Part shown: piece by piece, positions 19,971 to 34,659 of the stretch | How positions within the stretch are numbered: position 1 is the stretch's first letter | How the letters are laid out: the number at the start of each line of letters is the position of its first letter | Origin: a virus | IMG/VR virus record: IMGVR_UViG_3300017971_000159 | Location: 1 to 36,290 of that record | Strand: one strand, 5' to 3' | Length of the DNA stretch: 36,290 nt | Notes under the pieces: generated by a model | Database searches by the model: none | Told to the model about the DNA's origin: nothing | What the model saw: only the letters and a program-made list of their open reading frames with translations | Program-made: the position numbers and the translations under genes

Positions 19971-20046
19971 CGTCACATCTGCCGCCTCTTAATTCATTAA
20001 TTTACATGCTACGACCTTGCATGCTCCGTATAATCTACTGTTATGC
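19958..20046. other. Possible degenerate attC-like site in the convergent junction
   Basis: Read leftward, GCATAAC (20040-20046 reverse complement) contains the stop of the 73-aa gene and GTTATCT closes the site at 19958-19964. Between them lie CATGC/GCATG inverted repeats (20005-20023). The arm complementarity is weak and no matching cassette start is seen, so this is only suggestive. Confidence 0.2.
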
Positions 20047-20262
20047 ATAACCATTATTCAAAGCATTGGTTATCGCTTTTAAGCATTCTGGACAGACGAT
20101 AAGCCTACCTCCTTGCTCGCCATTTAATGCTGCATGGGTAACGTCCTGAAAAAAGGGCTTTAATTCGTAAGTATTTCCGCACCACGTTTCTTTTCCGTCT
20201 GCTCTAACCGCGTTACCGAAACCAACGCAATGTACATATTCAGGCCTGCGCATAATAAACAT
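20041..20262 (-). CDS. Small zinc-ribbon-like hypothetical protein
   Basis: This 73-aa protein, or 70 aa from the second Met (MRRPEY), has Cys/His pairs HC..., WCGN and CPEC that could bind one zinc. It is the most 3' gene of the leftward transcript. It is preceded by a promoter of the shared TTTTGCTAA class and separated from the SSB gene by a leftward terminator, so it is expressed alone. The function is unknown. Confidence 0.55.
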   Translation of the reverse strand: MFIMRRPEYVHCVGFGNAVRADGKETWCGNTYELKPFFQDVTHAALNGEQGGRLIVCPECLKAITNALNNGYA

Positions 20263-20738: not shown

Positions 20739-20823
20739 ATATAACAGTTAAATTTGTGAAGTGGTGCATTTTGTCCGTATAGGGGTGTTATGCGCCACTT
20801 TTGGGGTATATCCCTTGTTATAA
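20739..20823 (-). other. attC-like recombination site 8 (after the MT-A70 gene)
   Basis: Read leftward, R'' is TTATAAC (20823-20817), holding the methylase stop codon, and R' is GTTATAT (20745-20739). The arms AAGTGG/CCACTT (20759-20764 with 20795-20800) continue into GCAT/ATGC after a single mismatch, giving an imperfect palindrome. A 16-nt block around R'' (GTGCGTTATAACAAGG) is identical to that of the site at 31278. Confidence 0.55.
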
Positions 20824-21345
20824 CGCACCATCAAGTTCGGCAGTGCATTCAACCTCATTGCCCCATACGTCCCATCCTTCTGCGGGGTAACGGCAAAACA
20901 GCTCCACACGGTTTACATCTGGAAACCACGCTTTTATTAGGTCTCGTATTTCATTTGGTTTCTTGCTGTGCTTTCCTCTCGCAAATTCAAAAACACTGCT
21001 ACGCCTATCCTTTTGATCAGGCGGGCTAAACTTGCCCCTTGTCCCAACTAATAGAATCTCATGCTGGCCTCTAAACCAGTACCCCATTCCTATCTTCTTT
21101 TTATCCCATACCGCCTGTGATTTATAGCTAAACCCCCATGCTTTCATCACTTCTATCCCCTCTAGCAGCTTAGGGGCTGTAGTCCACAGGTATAGAACGC
21201 TATTGTCATCTGCTGGAACATTCAGAGCACATAGCTCCTTCTGTGTCATTGTCGGGTATTGGTTCTCAATCTTCCTTGAGTCACTTTTGCTGAAGCTATA
21301 GCGCCACGGTGGGTCTGCGTAAATTACCTGGTATTTCTTTGTCAT
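20818..21345 (-). CDS. MT-A70 family N6-adenine DNA methyltransferase
   Basis: The 175-aa start ATG at 21345 is supported by AGAGGAACG; the open frame further upstream runs into the preceding attC-like site. Residues 9-14 carry the DPPW catalytic motif (VIYADPPWRYSF). LYLWTTAPKLLEGIEVMKAWGFSYKSQAVWDKKKIGMGYWFRGQHEILLVGTRG and a late FCRYPAEGWDVWGNE are the characteristic MT-A70 blocks. It transfers methyl from SAM to adenine N6, and in phages this usually shields DNA from restriction. It is flanked by two attC-like sites and so looks like a mobile cassette. Confidence 0.85.
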   Translation of the reverse strand: MTKKYQVIYADPPWRYSFSKSDSRKIENQYPTMTQKELCALNVPADDNSVLYLWTTAPKLLEGIEVMKAWGFSYKSQAVWDKKKIGMGYWFRGQHEILLVGTRGKFSPPDQKDRRSSVFEFARGKHSKKPNEIRDLIKAWFPDVNRVELFCRYPAEGWDVWGNEVECTAELDGAL

Positions 21346-21370
21346 CAATCGTTCCTCTTGTGTAGGTACG

Positions 21371-21430
21371 GTATAACAATGCAATCTAGCGGACAACAAA
21401 AAGCGTTGCCGCTAATCGCCAGCGTTACTC
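21371..21430 (-). other. attC-like recombination site 9 (before the MT-A70 gene)
   Basis: Read leftward, R'' is GAGTAAC (21430-21424), containing the stop of the 251-aa gene, and R' is GTTATAC (21377-21371). The arm TAGCGGCAA (21414-21406) pairs with TTGTCCGCTA (21396-21387), leaving one extrahelical base, the asymmetry expected of attC. R' GTTATAC matches the closing TTATAAC of the methylase cassette in six of seven positions. Confidence 0.65.
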
Positions 21431-25316: not shown

Positions 25317-25486
25317 TTTTGCAGTGATTGTTGTATAGAGTTTGCTTTGTCTGGTGGATGATTCGAGCCTGAATCCAGATGTATCAATAAGGACTAATGA
25401 CCGTTTTTTGGTCTGCTGGTGAGGTTCCTTGTTCCTCGCTCGAAACCGGCAGATCAAAGAGCGGTTTTTTATTGGAGCAAAGAAAG
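25317..25486 (+). promoter_or_regulatory. Structured leader of the replication operon
   Basis: This 170-nt gene-free stretch contains an 11-bp stem GGTCTGCTGGT (25410-25420) / ACCGGCAGATC (25445-25455), with one internal GAGG/CCTC hairpin. The 3' arm competes with two alternative pairings that end in a T6 run: AAACCG (25443-25448)/CGGTTT (25462-25467) and GCTC (25438-25441)/GAGC (25459-25462). Mutually exclusive antiterminator- and terminator-like folds point to attenuation, about 20 nt before the initiator ATG. Confidence 0.45.
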
Positions 25487-26512
25487 ATGAGAGAGTATGG
25501 GCAAATTCAATGTTCGTTTTGGGGTAGTCCAGAGATAGCGGGGCTTGATAGCAACGGCAAGCTGTTGGCCGCTTACCTTTTAACTGGCCCACACAGTAAT
25601 GGCCTTGGGTGTTTTAGGGTGCCATTGGGGTACGTAATGGCGGATCTGGGATGGGATAAAAAAACCGTATCGAAAGGGTTTGAAGACCTTATTGATAGCG
25701 GGTTTTGCTTGCGGTGTAACGATACAGAATGGGTCATTATGCCAAAATATTTAAAATGGAATCCGATAGCCAACCCTAAAGTTGGCGCTGCCAGAGTAAA
25801 AGAGGCACGCGCATGCCCAACAGTAGCATCAATCTGGCCTGCGATGGTGGAGGCTATTGATATCTATGCCGGGAAACATTTACCTAAAGATTTCCGCGAT
25901 ATAATAACAGAGAAGTGGAAGCCGATAGCATGCAAAATCCCGGAAAAAACAAGGCAGTACGTCCTTGATAGGGGTGGGAATCAATGCTCAGAATGCGGAG
26001 CAAAAGACGACATAACGATCGATCATATTCGTCCTGTTGCGTATGGCGGAACACACGACGAAAGCAATTTAAGAGTGCTATGTCGTAGCTGTAATTCTAA
26101 GTGGTTTCCAAATGGTATCGAAACCTTATCGAAACAAGACCCTACCCTACCCTACCCTACCCAGACCCAACCCAGAGAGGAAAACACCCTAGGCAAAGTC
26201 GATAGATTCCAAGATTTCTGGGACGCCTTCGCAGACAAGCGCGGAAAGGATGGGGCAGAGAGAGTATGGAAAAGACGAAAGCTGGATGAGATTGCTGATT
26301 ATGTCATTGAGGGCGCTTCACAGTATGCAGCGACAAGAGGCACCGAGCGAAAATACTGGAAACAGGCCCAAGGCTGGCTCAATGATGGCCGGTGGCAAGA
26401 TGATCTAAGTCACAAGACGCAGCAGCAGCAAAACGACGATGACGCATTTAACGCGTGGTTCTACGGCACAGAGGATGCCGCACCAATCGAGGGAGAGCTA
26501 GAGCATGAATGA
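25487..26512 (+). CDS. Replication initiator with an internal HNH domain
   Basis: The 341-aa start ATG at 25487 has GGAG upstream. Residues 1-145 resemble the winged-helix N-termini of phage replication organisers (GKLLAAYLLTGPHSNGLGCFRVPLGYVMADLGWDKKTVSKGFEDLIDSGF...MPKYLKWNPIANP). Residues about 153-206 are a complete HNH nuclease: C167-SEC170, DITIDH180, ESNLRVLCRSCNSKW with C199/C202. Residues about 240-305 are the typical C-terminal replication-protein block (FQDFWDAFADKRGKDGAERVWKRRKL...YWKQAQGWLNDGRWQDDL). A CCCTA repeat encodes part of the linker. Confidence 0.75.
   Translation: MREYGQIQCSFWGSPEIAGLDSNGKLLAAYLLTGPHSNGLGCFRVPLGYVMADLGWDKKTVSKGFEDLIDSGFCLRCNDTEWVIMPKYLKWNPIANPKVGAARVKEARACPTVASIWPAMVEAIDIYAGKHLPKDFRDIITEKWKPIACKIPEKTRQYVLDRGGNQCSECGAKDDITIDHIRPVAYGGTHDESNLRVLCRSCNSKWFPNGIETLSKQDPTLPYPTQTQPREENTLGKVDRFQDFWDAFADKRGKDGAERVWKRRKLDEIADYVIEGASQYAATRGTERKYWKQAQGWLNDGRWQDDLSHKTQQQQNDDDAFNAWFYGTEDAAPIEGELEHE
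26140..26162 (+). repeat. Pentanucleotide repeat (CCCTA)x4 plus CCC in a coding region
   Basis: Four whole CCCTA units and a partial fifth lie between the HNH and C-terminal blocks of the replication initiator (codons about 218-226, PTLPYPTQ). Five is not a multiple of three, so gain or loss of one unit would shift the frame. Confidence 0.85.
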
Positions 26513-27185
26513 CGCAGACAAGGCGCAATTTCTCAGCGCACTAATCACAATGGGCGCACTTTACGACAAAGACGATGCCGACGTTAGGAAGAAAAGCCCG
26601 CTGTATTGGCAGGCGCTCAATCACCGCAGCCTGGATGAGATACTGGATGCAATGAACAAACACGCCAGAGATGCGGACAGGGGCCGATTTTTCCCTAAGC
26701 CTGCTGACATTGAGGCGCAGATGCCGGAATCGCTCGAAATGTGGCCTTCGCCAAATGAAGCATGGGCAATGGCACCGAAGGATGACTACGCGTCAACAGC
26801 AATGTGTGAGGAAATAGCGCAGGCACTAGGCATTGCGCAGCCACTCATAGACTCAGGCGACACGATAGCGGCGAGGATGGCGTTTCTTGAGGCCTACAAG
26901 CGCCGTGTAGGCGATGCAAAGGCGCAAGGCAAGCATCCGCACTGGTTCAAGAGCTTAGGCGAAGACAGTTCATCCCATTATCAGGCCGACGTGAAGCTGG
27001 TACAGATGCGCAACCTATCGCTGTCGCCATCTGAGCAATTGGCGCTGCCAGAACCGCAGCAAGTAAACCAAATATCGCTTGAGTACCTGGGCGAGAAAGC
27101 AAAAGAACACGCAACCGACAAGGAAGCGGCACATAAGAATCTAATGGGAATACTGGGAATGCTTAAAGGTGATGGCAATGAGTGA
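26505..27185 (+). CDS. Helicase-loader-like replication protein (lambda P-type role)
   Basis: The 226-aa protein overlaps the initiator gene by 8 nt. FLSALITMGALYDKDDADVRKKSPLYWQALNHRSLDEILDAMNKHARDADRGRFFPKPADIEAQMP (1-75) is the compact block of phage P-like loaders that recruit host DnaB. The rest is helical with Gln/Ala-rich stretches. Position after the initiator is the O-P order of lambdoid phages. No phage helicase or polymerase is seen, so host replisome use is implied. Confidence 0.7.
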   Translation: MNDADKAQFLSALITMGALYDKDDADVRKKSPLYWQALNHRSLDEILDAMNKHARDADRGRFFPKPADIEAQMPESLEMWPSPNEAWAMAPKDDYASTAMCEEIAQALGIAQPLIDSGDTIAARMAFLEAYKRRVGDAKAQGKHPHWFKSLGEDSSSHYQADVKLVQMRNLSLSPSEQLALPEPQQVNQISLEYLGEKAKEHATDKEAAHKNLMGILGMLKGDGNE

Positions 27186-27408
27186 CCAAGAAACCGAGAA
27201 GAAAAAAGGGATGCGCCGTTCTGTGCTGCTGCCTGGGGAGAATAGCGAGATGTTCAATATGGCTATGCTGGAATCTGGGAAGTCGGAAAAGGAGTTTAGG
27301 GAGCATAGGCTACTGCTAAACGGATGGACTGAGCAGGATGAGCAGACTTTTCTGATGAATTTATCCGCTGTTGGAAAATTTGCACAACTTGGGCCTGATT
27401 ATAGTTGA
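27178..27408 (+). CDS. Small hypothetical protein
   Basis: This 76-aa protein with an AAGGTG Shine-Dalgarno overlaps the loader gene by 8 nt. It has charged, helical content (ETEKKKGMRRSVLLPGENSEMFNMAMLESGKSEKEFREHRLLLNGWTEQDE) and is the last gene of the replication operon. It ends inside the -35 box of the promoter that opens the cassette array. Confidence 0.5.
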   Translation: MSDQETEKKKGMRRSVLLPGENSEMFNMAMLESGKSEKEFREHRLLLNGWTEQDEQTFLMNLSAVGKFAQLGPDYS

Positions 27409-27433
27409 CGCCCCATTATACTTTTGCTAAGGT
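27405..27433 (+). promoter_or_regulatory. Promoter of the cassette array, shared TTATACTTTTGCTAA class (3)
   Basis: TTGACG (27405-27410), 17 bp, TAAGGT (27428-27433), with TGC extended -10. The spacer core TTATACTTTTGC is identical to the one at 20284. The first cassette boundary GTTAGGG (27432-27438) overlaps the -10 box, so the promoter ends where the array begins, as an integron Pc would. Confidence 0.7.
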
Positions 27434-27459
27434 TAGGGAAAGTTAGTTAGGAGGTAGCC

Positions 27460-27693
27460 ATGAACAAGAAGAGCCACAAAACAAACCGCATGAAGGTCTA
27501 CAGCCTTATCGGCAAAAGGCCGATGACATCAAAGCAGCTTGAGCGTATAGCGATGCAGCGAGGCGTTAATGTCAACTATTATGAGATATGCCGAAGGATG
27601 TCGGAGCTTGTTCGGGCTGGGTTTGTTGAGAGTAGCGGGCGTGCTGAGTGTCCTATTCTCGGATCAACATGCAGCTTATGGGTTAAGGTATAG
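27460..27693 (+). CDS. Cassette 1: winged-helix DNA-binding protein
   Basis: The 77-aa protein has AGGAGGT before its ATG. RMKVYSLIGKRPMTSKQLERIAMQRGVNVNYYEICRRMSELVRAGFVESSGRAECPILGSTCSLWVKV is a winged-helix fold (helix-helix-recognition helix-wing). It probably regulates transcription of host or phage genes. It lies in the first cassette, nearest the promoter, and opens with GTTAGGG at 27432. Confidence 0.7.
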   Translation: MNKKSHKTNRMKVYSLIGKRPMTSKQLERIAMQRGVNVNYYEICRRMSELVRAGFVESSGRAECPILGSTCSLWVKV

Positions 27694-27719
27694 CGACTTT
27701 ATTAAAAGGGCGCATTCAG

Positions 27720-27772
27720 CCCTAACTACGAAGCGCCGCAGTATGGCGCTCCTTTTGAAATACGTGTTAGGT
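27720..27772 (+). other. attC-like site 1
   Basis: R'' CCCTAAC (27720-27726), R' GTTAGGT (27766-27772, a perfect GTTRRRY). The inner AGCGCC/GGCGCT hairpin (27732-27737 with 27745-27750) and an ACG/CGT arm give a 53-bp imperfect palindrome. R'' pairs with the array-opening GTTAGGG at 27432. Confidence 0.75.
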
Positions 27773-27778
27773 GTAGCT

Positions 27779-27967
27779 ATGAAAATAGATGATGGATTTA
27801 AGAGATTCACGAAACACACAAAAGACGAGTGCGGCTTTTGTGTTAACTGTGTGCTTGGGCTGTGGGGTGTTTCTGCACCTACGAAGGAGCAGGCAGAGAA
27901 TGAGGCCAGGCACTACTTTGCGCAGTATTGGAGTGACGGCGAGTACGATCACTTAATTAACACCTAA
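27779..27967 (+). CDS. Cassette 2: hypothetical small Cys-containing protein
   Basis: The 62-aa ATG lies 13 nt after the cassette boundary, close spacing typical of integron cassettes. KIDDGFKRFTKHTKDECGFCVNCVLGLWGVSAPTKEQAENEARHYFAQYWSDGEYDH has a CxxC pair (CGFCVNC) and an aromatic C-terminus. The stop TAA lies inside R'' of attC 2. The open frame continues upstream through attC 1. No family recognised. Confidence 0.6.
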   Translation: MKIDDGFKRFTKHTKDECGFCVNCVLGLWGVSAPTKEQAENEARHYFAQYWSDGEYDHLINT

Positions 27968-28095
27968 CGCTGCGCTTGAGCAGCAGGCCGCAAACGAAAC
28001 CAACAAACCATAGGACTACTAAAATGACCGACGGAACCGCAGAAGTTGAACCAACCGCCGACGAGGCCTGTCTGCCTCAAAGCGCCTTGTTATCT
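27962..28095 (+). other. attC-like site 2, long
   Basis: R'' ACCTAAC (27962-27968, perfect RYYYAAC), R' GTTATCT (28089-28095). The arms GCGCTT/AAGCGC (27972-27977 with 28080-28085) and CAGGCC/GGCCTG (27984-27989 with 28064-28069) pair with several unpaired bases between, as in VCR-length attC sites. The large loop holds the ribosome binding site and start codon of the next gene. R'' pairs with GTTAGGT of attC 1. Confidence 0.78.
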
Positions 28096-28443
28096 GACGC
28101 CTTAAAAGCAATATGCTTGACGCGTGATTATGTGGGTGAGGATACATTGCCAGCGCTTGAAGGGTGGTCATGGTATGACGCTGGAAAGAAAATAGCGGAC
28201 GCGATAAGCGAAGATGAATGGGCTTGCGAGTTTAGAAAACGGGTAAACCGCTACAGAAGCAAAGATGTGCGTGAGAAGTTTGATGTTGGCGATTGGGTGT
28301 TTGGCATTGGTGAACATGAAGGATGCTCAGAGGTATTTGAAGGCACGTATTGCGACTTCCAGCCATTCAGCTACTTAGATGATTTCAACCCTGATAATTT
28401 CCGGCTAGCTACTGAGCTAGAGATTGAAGCTGCGAAGAGCTAA
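28024..28443 (+). CDS. Cassette 3: hypothetical protein starting inside attC 2
   Basis: The 139-aa ATG at 28024 has AGGA 8 nt upstream, both within the attC 2 loop, and the frame crosses the G^TT boundary (QSALLSDALK). The C-terminal region, FDVGDWVFGIGEHEGCSEVFEGTYCDFQPFSYLDDFNPDNFRLATELEIEAA, is a beta-rich domain with a terminal RLATxxEIEAA common in phage small proteins. Without the attC-coded part the native start would have to be a TTG or GTG near 28117-28137. Function unknown. Confidence 0.55.
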   Translation: MTDGTAEVEPTADEACLPQSALLSDALKAICLTRDYVGEDTLPALEGWSWYDAGKKIADAISEDEWACEFRKRVNRYRSKDVREKFDVGDWVFGIGEHEGCSEVFEGTYCDFQPFSYLDDFNPDNFRLATELEIEAAKS

Positions 28444-28446
28444 GGC

Positions 28447-28519
28447 AGATAACGCCAAACTAAAAGGCGCGAAGCCGTCCGAATGAGCGAAGTGAATGAT
28501 GTTTAACTATTTGTTATGC
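28447..28519 (+). other. attC-like site 3
   Basis: R'' AGATAAC (28447-28453), R' GTTATGC (28513-28519). The centre has GGC/GCC (GGCGCGAAGCC) and arms CCAAACTAAA against TTTAACT, weaker than in the other sites. It begins 3 nt after the stop of cassette 3. R'' is the exact complement of GTTATCT, which opened that cassette. Confidence 0.65.
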
Positions 28520-28543
28520 GCTACGGCGCTGGGAGAGAATGAG

Positions 28544-28723
28544 ATGAAGGAGCCAACCGTAAAGCGTTGCACTATGCGCGATGCGATAGATGAAAATGAC
28601 GCCGATGAAATACACCTTGAATGCCGTATGTCTGACGGACAAAAGGGCGCTTTTGTTGTTGTGGATGGTGATTTTCCTGAGCTTGCGAGAAAGTTGCATG
28701 ATTTTTTAAATGCTGACGCATAA
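28544..28723 (+). CDS. Cassette 4: hypothetical small acidic protein
   Basis: The 59-aa ATG at 28544 follows GGGAGAG. KEPTVKRCTMRDAIDENDADEIHLECRMSDGQKGAFVVVDGDFPELARKLHDFLNADA is acidic and likely one beta-alpha domain. The stop TAA lies inside R'' of attC 4. The open frame also runs upstream across attC 3 (NYLLCATALGENE), so a longer start at 28496 or 28499 is possible. Confidence 0.58.
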   Translation: MKEPTVKRCTMRDAIDENDADEIHLECRMSDGQKGAFVVVDGDFPELARKLHDFLNADA

Positions 28724-28789
28724 CGCCGGTTTAACCGGATAGGAGAGAACGCAGTGAACGACGAGTCCGAGTTAAAACCATTGTTATGC
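28718..28789 (+). other. attC-like site 4
   Basis: R'' GCATAAC (28718-28724), R' GTTATGC (28783-28789). The arms GGTTTAA (28728-28734) and TTAAAACC (28772-28779) pair with one extrahelical A. The loop contains GGAGAG and a GTG start codon. R'' pairs with GTTATGC at 28513. Confidence 0.8.
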
Positions 28790-28945
28790 GCCGATTTCGA
28801 TTTAAACAAATTGATCGCCGCTAGAAAAATGAGAACACATTGCGGGAAATATACCGCAGATGAGTTACTGGACGAAGTTGTGGCACTATACAACAAATAC
28901 TACTTGCCACAGATTAAGAAATTACAGGATGCGCTAGGTGCATAA
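28754..28945 (+). CDS. Cassette 5: hypothetical protein starting inside attC 4
   Basis: The 63-aa GTG at 28754 with GGAGAG upstream lies in the attC 4 loop; the frame crosses the boundary as KPLLCADFDLNKL. The LLCA tetrapeptide is simply the R' box TTGTTATGCGC read in frame. The rest (AARKMRTHCGKYTADELLDEVVALYNKYYLPQIKKLQDALGA) is helical. The stop TAA is inside R'' of attC 5. Confidence 0.55.
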   Translation: MNDESELKPLLCADFDLNKLIAARKMRTHCGKYTADELLDEVVALYNKYYLPQIKKLQDALGA

Positions 28946-29022
28946 CGCTGGTTTAAGGCGCGCAAGTAAAGCAGTAAGAAATGTGACGCGGAACCCGCGT
29001 CGTTTTGAAACCATTGTTATGA
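28940..29022 (+). other. attC-like site 5
   Basis: R'' GCATAAC (28940-28946), R' GTTATGA (29016-29022). A perfect GACGCGG-AAC-CCGCGTC hairpin (28984-29000) forms the tip, and GGTTT (28950-28954) pairs with AAACC (29008-29012). R'' pairs with GTTATGC at 28783. Confidence 0.8.
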
Positions 29023-29032
29023 GGCGATATAG

Positions 29033-29191
29033 ATGAAACAGCCATTGATTGAGAGATTACTGAACTGGATATGTGACACCTTTGGGCACACAAAGAGTGG
29101 TAGTAGAAATGCTGAATGGCTGCATGATGGGAATAGGCATTACCAATGCACAAGATGTAACCGCATTGTATCGAGGCCGGAAGCCTCATAA
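29033..29191 (+). CDS. Cassette 6: small zinc-ribbon-like protein
   Basis: The 52-aa MKQPLIERLLNWICDTFGHTKSGSRNAEWLHDGNRHYQCTRCNRIVSRPEAS carries C14...H19 and CTRC, a possible one-zinc ribbon. The ATG is 17 nt after the cassette boundary. The stop TAA is inside R'' of attC 6. Confidence 0.6.
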   Translation: MKQPLIERLLNWICDTFGHTKSGSRNAEWLHDGNRHYQCTRCNRIVSRPEAS

Positions 29192-29242
29192 CAAGGAGCT
29201 ATGCGGAAAGCATCAGCTTTACCGCATCAGCGGGAGTTAGAT
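29186..29242 (+). other. attC-like site 6
   Basis: R'' TCATAAC (29186-29192), R' GTTAGAT (29236-29242). GCT-ATGCGG pairs with CCGCAT-C-AGC, leaving one extrahelical C, and the tip is AAAGC-ATCA-GCTTT. R'' pairs with GTTATGA at 29016 and extends to nine matched bases. The arm sequence TAACAAGGAGCTATGCGG is shared with the site at 31278. This site closes the continuous array. Confidence 0.8.
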
Positions 29243-30863: not shown

Positions 30864-31283
30864 ATGAAACAGATATTTTTAGAAGATTTAAAGGACATGA
30901 CAGAAGTTGAGATTAAAGCGCATATTGCCGGAGAGTATGGCGGCGATAAAAGTGGTTTTGATTACGGTGAGCCTGATGCAAATGATGTGGCGAACGTAGC
31001 GAAGACTTTAGAAGAGTATGACGTTCTAGTAGCTTACGAATCTGTAGGTAGCTGTGGTTGCGACTCTTCTTCATATTTCCTGCTACAGCACAAAGAGACT
31101 GGCGTGTACCAAGAGTTCAGTGGCTCGCATTGCTCATGCTATGGATTTGAGGGGCAATTTGATTTACAGGAAGCGCCCATTGAATACTTAAAGAGCGATA
31201 AGTTTAACTTTTGCTGCGGCGGCTATGACGATAACGAAACAGAAAACCAACAGGCCGTGAAGGCGTTTGTTAGTGCGTTATAA
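30864..31283 (+). CDS. Hypothetical cysteine-rich phage protein
   Basis: The 139-aa GSCGCDSSSYFLLQHKETGVYQEFSGSHCSCYGFEGQFDLQEAPIEYLKSDKFNFCCGGYDDNE carries CGC, CSC and CC clusters and a GSHCSCYGFEGQ motif widespread in phage accessory genes of unknown role. The stop TAA is inside the R''-like TTATAAC of attC 7, like a cassette gene. Confidence 0.6.
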   Translation: MKQIFLEDLKDMTEVEIKAHIAGEYGGDKSGFDYGEPDANDVANVAKTLEEYDVLVAYESVGSCGCDSSSYFLLQHKETGVYQEFSGSHCSCYGFEGQFDLQEAPIEYLKSDKFNFCCGGYDDNETENQQAVKAFVSAL

Positions 31284-31319
31284 CAAGGAGCTATGCGGAG
31301 CATCAGCGGAATGTTAGGG
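31278..31319 (+). other. attC-like site 7, solitary and short
   Basis: R'' TTATAAC (31278-31284), R' GTTAGGG (31313-31319). The fold GCT-ATGC-GGA-GCAT-C-AGC mirrors attC 6 with a shorter tip and the same extrahelical C. The cassette opener expected (GTTATAA) is not seen nearby; GTTATAG at 30355 is closest. Confidence 0.6.
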
Positions 31320-34059: not shown

Positions 34060-34317
34060 GTGGAAAACCAAGCCCGCGACAAATTCGAGCAGGAGAGGGA
34101 AGAGCTGCGGCGTGAGTGTGCCGCCAGGAAGGTAGAGCGCGAGAATGAGCCTAAGCGCCGATATCGCCGCAGCAGCGGGCGCTGGGGTGATGATGCCATA
34201 GATCGGCTTGTGAGCGAGAATAAGCGGCTTAGGGCGGCTGTTAATGCCATTATGGCAAGCGAGCTTGTCAGTGACGAGGCGAAAGGGGTATTATTTCAGG
34301 GCATTAAGCCGGTATAG
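34060..34317 (+). CDS. Basic coiled-coil protein
   Basis: The 85-aa GTG at 34060 follows GGGAGGATTGAT. Arg/Glu-rich coiled coil: ENQARDKFEQEREELRRECAARKVERENEPKRRYRRSSGRWGDDAIDRLVSENKRLRAAVNAIM. Its stop codon (34315-34317) lies inside the 5' acceptor arm of the tRNA-Thr gene. Confidence 0.5.
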   Translation: MENQARDKFEQEREELRRECAARKVERENEPKRRYRRSSGRWGDDAIDRLVSENKRLRAAVNAIMASELVSDEAKGVLFQGIKPV

Positions 34318-34383
34318 CTCAGATGGTAGAGTGCTTCACTTGTAATGAAGATGTCGCGGGTTCGATGCCTGCTACCGGCTCCA
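34308..34383 (+). tRNA. tRNA-Thr (anticodon TGT), CCA encoded
   Basis: Acceptor GCCGGTA / TACCGGC, D arm GCTC...GAG, anticodon stem CTTCA/TGAAG with loop CTTGTAA (anticodon TGT), T arm with GGTTCGATGCC, encoded CCA at 34381-34383. It would read ACA codons. It overlaps the 3' end of the preceding gene. Confidence 0.93.
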
Positions 34384-34581: not shown

Positions 34582-34659
34582 AGGCCTAAAGCTCATGTGG
34601 TATGAGCGCCCGACTCATAATCGGGAGGTACGCAGGTTCAAATCCTCGTAGGCCTACCA
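34582..34659 (+). tRNA. tRNA with CAT anticodon (Met, or Ile if modified), CCA encoded
   Basis: Acceptor AGGCCTA/TAGGCCT, D arm GCTC...GAGC, anticodon stem CCCGA/TCGGG with loop CTCATAA (anticodon CAT), CCA at 34657-34659. The T stem GCAGG against CCTCG pairs at only three of five positions, so the gene is somewhat degenerate. Confidence 0.8.

Follow-up and report, generated by a model that had tools for sequence, protein, structure and literature searches.

A phage genome held as a single IMG/VR virus record (36,290 bases, analyzed over its whole length and referred to here as the window) was found to contain, at positions 27432-29242, six consecutive gene units separated by attC-type sites. 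We consider it likely (probability of roughly 0.86) that this phage carries a CALIN, i.e. cassettes with small genes, delimited by true attC sites, without an integrase of its own and presumably moved by a host IntI. An integron-type array is supported by the rule that its boxes follow, by a covariance model from which the window sites were held out, by phage genes on both sides of the array, and by other phages organized alike. The initial annotation had proposed such an array without integrase in a phage; the kind of element held up, but the polarity assigned to its attC sites, its unprecedented status and the label "virulent" did not.

Gene units, boxes and attC sites

Each of the six units was delimited by 7-nt opening and closing boxes that were exactly complementary (7/7), all six reverse-complement pairs of the initial annotation being reproduced at their positions. 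Box mismatches numbered 0, 0, 0, 0, 0 and 0 across the gene units and 1, 2, 2, 0 and 1 across the hairpin sites, and when closing boxes were dealt randomly six matches arose in 2 of 720 permutations. In dinucleotide shuffles of the window, where the longest chain of matched units was counted, this chain reached three units with any GTT box (300 shuffles) and two with boxes restricted to GTT[AG] (500 shuffles); the tighter GTT[AG] rule was adopted because a looser chain rule gave chance chains of up to five. Since complementarity went with the gene unit rather than with the hairpin, it indicates recombination through a circle, the joining of both unit ends in such a circle being the only process that predicts unit-matched boxes. 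The same rule was obeyed by class 1 plasmid controls and by phages TJE1 and MW202573. As had been noted before, five of six stop codons lay in the closing box or 3 nt from it, the exception being gene 1 (27 nt away).

Two covariance models (CM) were used: R1, built from 11 class 1 attC sites, and R2, built from the R1 set plus the attC sites of TJE1, MW202573, P12002L, H101 and G001 (IMGVR_UViG_3300032258_000006), with the window sites held out; their E-values are rough, owing to a short calibration. R2 recovered four array sites (4, 5, 3 and 1, in order of decreasing score; Table 1) in 1.3 kb, which places at least two attC sites within 4 kb. With class 1 training alone (R1), site 4 was the only array site recovered, weakly (E 0.36), and the site at 21371-21430, one of the two strongest attC sites in the window, was matched strongly. 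R1 also recovered published sites of TJE1 (25.2 bits) and MW202573 (42.1 bits), and the known phage CALINs TJE1, MW202573, P12002L and H101 were detected with the same CMs. No match to R2 was found in 80 terminase-related loci or contigs (782 kb), in 17 full records of terminase relatives, or in PBR31, MW202867, MW202475 and MW202748.

The imperfect-palindrome hairpins described in the initial annotation were seen at sites 1, 2, 4, 5 and 6, part of one arm being lost at site 1, but not at site 3, which folds poorly (z about -0.3). Site 2 gave no meaningful CM score and showed a long stem, GCGCTTGAGCAGCAGGCC, whose opposite arm had three bulged bases; site 5 displayed extrahelical C and A spaced 6 nt apart (GGTTT[C]AAAACG[A]CGC). 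The polarity signals of site 6 conflicted, R2 favouring the plus strand and bulged bases suggesting the minus strand; its partial copy at 31278 scored weakly with R2 on the plus strand (12.3 bits), its bulges also suggesting minus. The extent given in the initial annotation needed correction as well; the attC at 21371-21430 and the partial copy of site 6 had been missed.

Among the cassette genes, gene 2 had relatives in Vibrio phages and gene 3 in Gordonia, Rhodococcus and Caulobacter phages; where other phages have homologues of genes 2 and 3, these are not flanked by attC sites. None of the six genes (0/6) matched the plasmid collection searched, and the six proteins matched no known defence or counter-defence family. 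The contents look more like phage accessory genes than like known resistance cassettes.

Table 1. Positions, strands and properties of the main features in the window
Feature	Position	Strand	Remarks
MT-A70-family DNA methyltransferase gene	20818-21399	-	ATG at 21345; 21371 attC upstream
attC outside array, canonical	21371-21430	+	R1 33.2 bits, E 3.4e-6; R2 35.4 bits
DnaD-like helicase loader with HNH domain	25397-26512		first gene of rightward block
Helicase-loader-like gene	26505-27185		after DnaD-like gene, before array
Promoter-like motif TTATACTTTTGCTAAG	27415-27429	+	putative, read from sequence; directly 5' of array
Opening box GTTAGGG, unit 1	27432-27438	+	exact complement of CCCTAAC at 27720
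Cassette gene 1	27460-27693	+	77 aa; phage family phrog_1123, weak HTH match
attC 1	27720-27772	-	R2 14.3 bits on - vs 3.4 on +; hairpin z -3.5
Cassette gene 2	27779-27967	+	62 aa; stop codon within closing box
attC 2	27962-28095	-	134 nt; fold; polarity from end motifs AGATAACAA / GCGTTAGGT
Cassette gene 3	28024-28443	+	139 aa; ATG inside attC 2 (alternative TTG 28087)
attC 3	28447-28519	-	R2 24.4 bits on - vs 6.1 on +; poor fold
Cassette gene 4	28544-28723	+	59 aa; stop codon within closing box
attC 4	28718-28789	-	R1 12.5 bits on -; R2 35.4 on - vs 11.1 on +
Cassette gene 5	28754-28945	+	63 aa; GTG start inside attC 4; stop in closing box
attC 5	28940-29022	-	R2 32.1 bits on -; none on +
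Cassette gene 6	29033-29191	+	52 aa; stop codon within closing box
Terminal site 6	29186-29242		strong hairpin, fold z -4.9; R2 12.7 on +, 5.4 on -
Partial copy of site 6	31278-31319		25 nt at 92%; at stop codon of 139-aa gene 30864-31283

In the methyltransferase unit outside the array the boxes (GTTATAC and TTATAAC) matched at 6 of 7 positions, and the location of the 21371 attC beside an MT-A70 gene agrees with the association of phage CALINs with DNA methyltransferases that has been reported. A similar element (TAACAAnGGnTATACCCCAAAAGTGRCGYATAAC, with a hairpin) followed the last closing box at window positions 20739-20826 (minus strand) and at the start of the G001 contig (1-126); it could be an array end or an attI-like site. 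At 20041-20262 (minus strand), a 73-aa gene with its stop within a GCATAAC box and a degenerate opening box (ATTATGC) is perhaps a decayed cassette.

Polarity of the attC sites relative to the genes

On the gene-sense strand, class 1 attC sites start with RYYYAACAA after the gene, end with GCGTTRRRY and carry two bulged bases, 6 nt apart, in the left arm. Window sites 2-5, read on the gene strand, start with TAACGC and end with TTGTTA, and are thus canonical on the other strand. The TAACAA/GCGTTRRRY ends, the extrahelical bases and the CM scores together assign sites 1-5 to the minus strand, which makes them antisense to the genes, contrary to the initial annotation. The genes are therefore inverted relative to the attC sites, and each gene's own attC is upstream, not downstream. 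Between the junctions at sites 4 and 5, a stretch of similarity (30 nt, 83%) extended from the hairpin across a GTTATG box and reached the beginning of the gene behind it, as expected if a hairpin and the gene that follows it travel together. Genes were antisense to sites 1, 3, 4 and 5, and also to the 21371 site, which lies on the plus strand beside genes that run leftward. Co-orientation of gene and attC is usual in integrons, but it does not define a CALIN.

Within a small sample, antisense polarity was found in four of the six phages examined, namely this phage, G001, MW202573 (sites on the minus and genes on the plus strand) and P12002L (site on the plus and methyltransferase genes on the minus strand); TJE1 was sense and H101 mixed. 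An assignment of H101 to the antisense group was rejected, since unannotated sense ORFs make its polarity mixed; at H101 26919-28987, these ORFs follow a repeated leader behind two attC sites, and the antisense genes alone are annotated. The "divergent directions" of P12002L are the sole mention of polarity in the text of Qi et al. 2023 (PMC9892861), and our comparison points to recurrent antisense polarity as a regularity absent from the discussion in that text.

In the antisense arrangement the IntI-active strand would be the gene-sense strand, and for genes running with the replication fork it would be the lagging-strand template. Inversion of the Vibrio cholerae array to the lagging-strand arrangement raised cassette excision (PMC11023631); if the same is true here, antisense polarity would favour frequent cassette turnover. 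This belongs to a wider reading, which we regard as possible but rather doubtful, in which phages keep a cassette pool of their own, with the gene inverted relative to the attC and distinct from the bacterial pool. Should the antisense regularity hold widely, the source of phage cassettes would be separate, with the host integron integrase as the shared tool.

Phage context, relatives and alternative explanations

The window had identical termini of 123 bp, on account of which a closed circle is the probable form of the 36,290-base record. The genes for the head were P22-like (portal phrog_156, major head protein, head closure Hc3 and large terminase), and two gene blocks diverged, one running leftward (24.4-20.0 kb) and one rightward from 24.5 kb. 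An N6/N4 methyltransferase gene followed the array, and then a NinX-family gene and a Holliday junction resolvase, so both flanks consist of phage genes, with replication upstream and the methyltransferase and NinX-family genes downstream. In lambdoid phages, accessory "nin" genes occupy the same position as this array. Scans found no relatives of the 26505 gene or of the methyltransferase. Near copies of the promoter-like motif at 27415 were present at about 20303 (minus strand) and, as TTATAGTTTTGCTAAAG, at about 22224 (minus strand). The left edge of the array (27386-27438) was considered as an attC or secondary IntI site and was rejected or at most left open, the promoter-like motif lying there without a hairpin. 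The window also contained tRNA-Thr and tRNA-Met genes (34308-34383 and 34582-34659), the former similar to Klebsiella phage tRNAs (85-89%).

No match to TIGR02249 was found in the record, in agreement with the initial annotation; there was thus no integron integrase near the array, nor a complete integron (intI plus attI), intI being absent. No integrase was recognised among the window proteins tested, a subset of the ORFs. The label "virulent" was not borne out, as the annotation of PBR31, a cultured relative by terminase, lists an integrase and repressors. Given the absence of an integron integrase from the record, we infer that a host IntI would act in trans on folded single-stranded attC sites, by which cassettes could be gained, lost and reordered, a single cassette consisting, in gene-sense order, of the attC and then the gene. 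The array occupies the accessory stretch after the replication genes, where a phage promoter might express it and its cassettes might benefit the phage.

No attC was present in MW202867, which is nearest in its structural genes (portal 70%, coat 73%, terminase 80%), or in the cultured Xanthomonas phage PBR31 (terminase 72-73%, gene after the replication gene 34%), and MW202573 (terminase 64%) had its array at a different place and with different genes; the array is therefore not a fixed feature of this lineage. The comparison with close relatives called for in the initial annotation thus confirmed that the array is absent from MW202867 and PBR31, but it yielded no clean gain or loss of cassettes, as the replication modules also differ among relatives, and no near-identical phage pair differing by one cassette was found. 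Integrons are reported in 93% of Xanthomonas genomes (PMC12444791), and this frequency, together with the kinship to PBR31, gives no more than a hint of a possible host group. G001 had seven exact units adjoining an O/DnaD-like replication gene, its attC sites being antisense to the genes; the site at 26820, which lies in the other arm, has this orientation too. This contig came, by luck, from an IMG/VR pattern scan with pieces of the window attC sites; it has further attC sites at 2778 and 26820, and its array is absent from the literature cited here. A gapped attC pattern scan of IMG/VR gave chance matches only, and a scan with TAACAAGGAGCTATGCGG gave no viral match and one chance match in bacterial genomes.

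The main competitor of a mobile CALIN is a dead relic, that is, a block of bacterial cassettes acquired once, since fixed and now immobile. The poor fold of site 3, the partly lost arm of site 1, the partial copy at 31278 and the lack of an IntI in the phage agree with it, but boxes still exactly matched in 6/6 units, the good preservation of sites 4, 5 and 21371, and cassette genes related to those of other phages and in no case to the plasmid collection make it unlikely. Considerably less probable is that the hairpins act as regulatory stem-loops between genes (as terminators or T4-type promoter stem-loops) in a region shuffled by homologous and not site-specific recombination. This would suit a plastic phage region of small genes in which some neighbouring sites (4 and 5) share sequence; however, homologous shuffling predicts neither variable boxes that match across the unit but not across the hairpin, nor attC-specific ends or CM scores. 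An assembly chimera, in which a phage was joined to a bacterial integron fragment, is conceivable for a metagenomic contig, yet it is highly improbable in view of the phage genes on both sides of the array, the 123-bp identical ends, as in a closed circle, the second attC elsewhere in the genome (21371) and the independent phages with the same arrangement.

Comparison with known cassette arrays

An array inside a phage had been called unprecedented, but Qi et al. 2023 (PMC9892861) had described 17 phage CALINs, of which three belonged to isolated virulent phages, and five of six phage attC sites recombined with attI1 via IntI1 in E. coli. The kind of element is therefore already published, and the present array, with six cassettes in a new phage lineage, extends a known but thin list. 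The phage CALINs of Qi et al. (TJE1, P12002L and PH101; also MW202573) likewise consist of attC-bounded cassettes without intI, and MW202573 and P12002L share the antisense polarity; in contrast, the array described here comprises a run of six units with one gene each, accompanied by an attC elsewhere in the genome, belongs to a different phage lineage and carries unrelated cassette genes, and TJE1 is sense-oriented. With class 1 and chromosomal integron arrays it shares the RYYYAAC/GTTRRRY boxes, the box rule and the bulges 6 nt apart, but it has neither intI nor a recognised attI, and its genes are antisense to the attC sites, whereas sense orientation was seen in the class 1 controls. T4-type promoter/stem-loop modules also have small phage genes separated by hairpins; unlike them, this array has unit-matched boxes and an attC profile.
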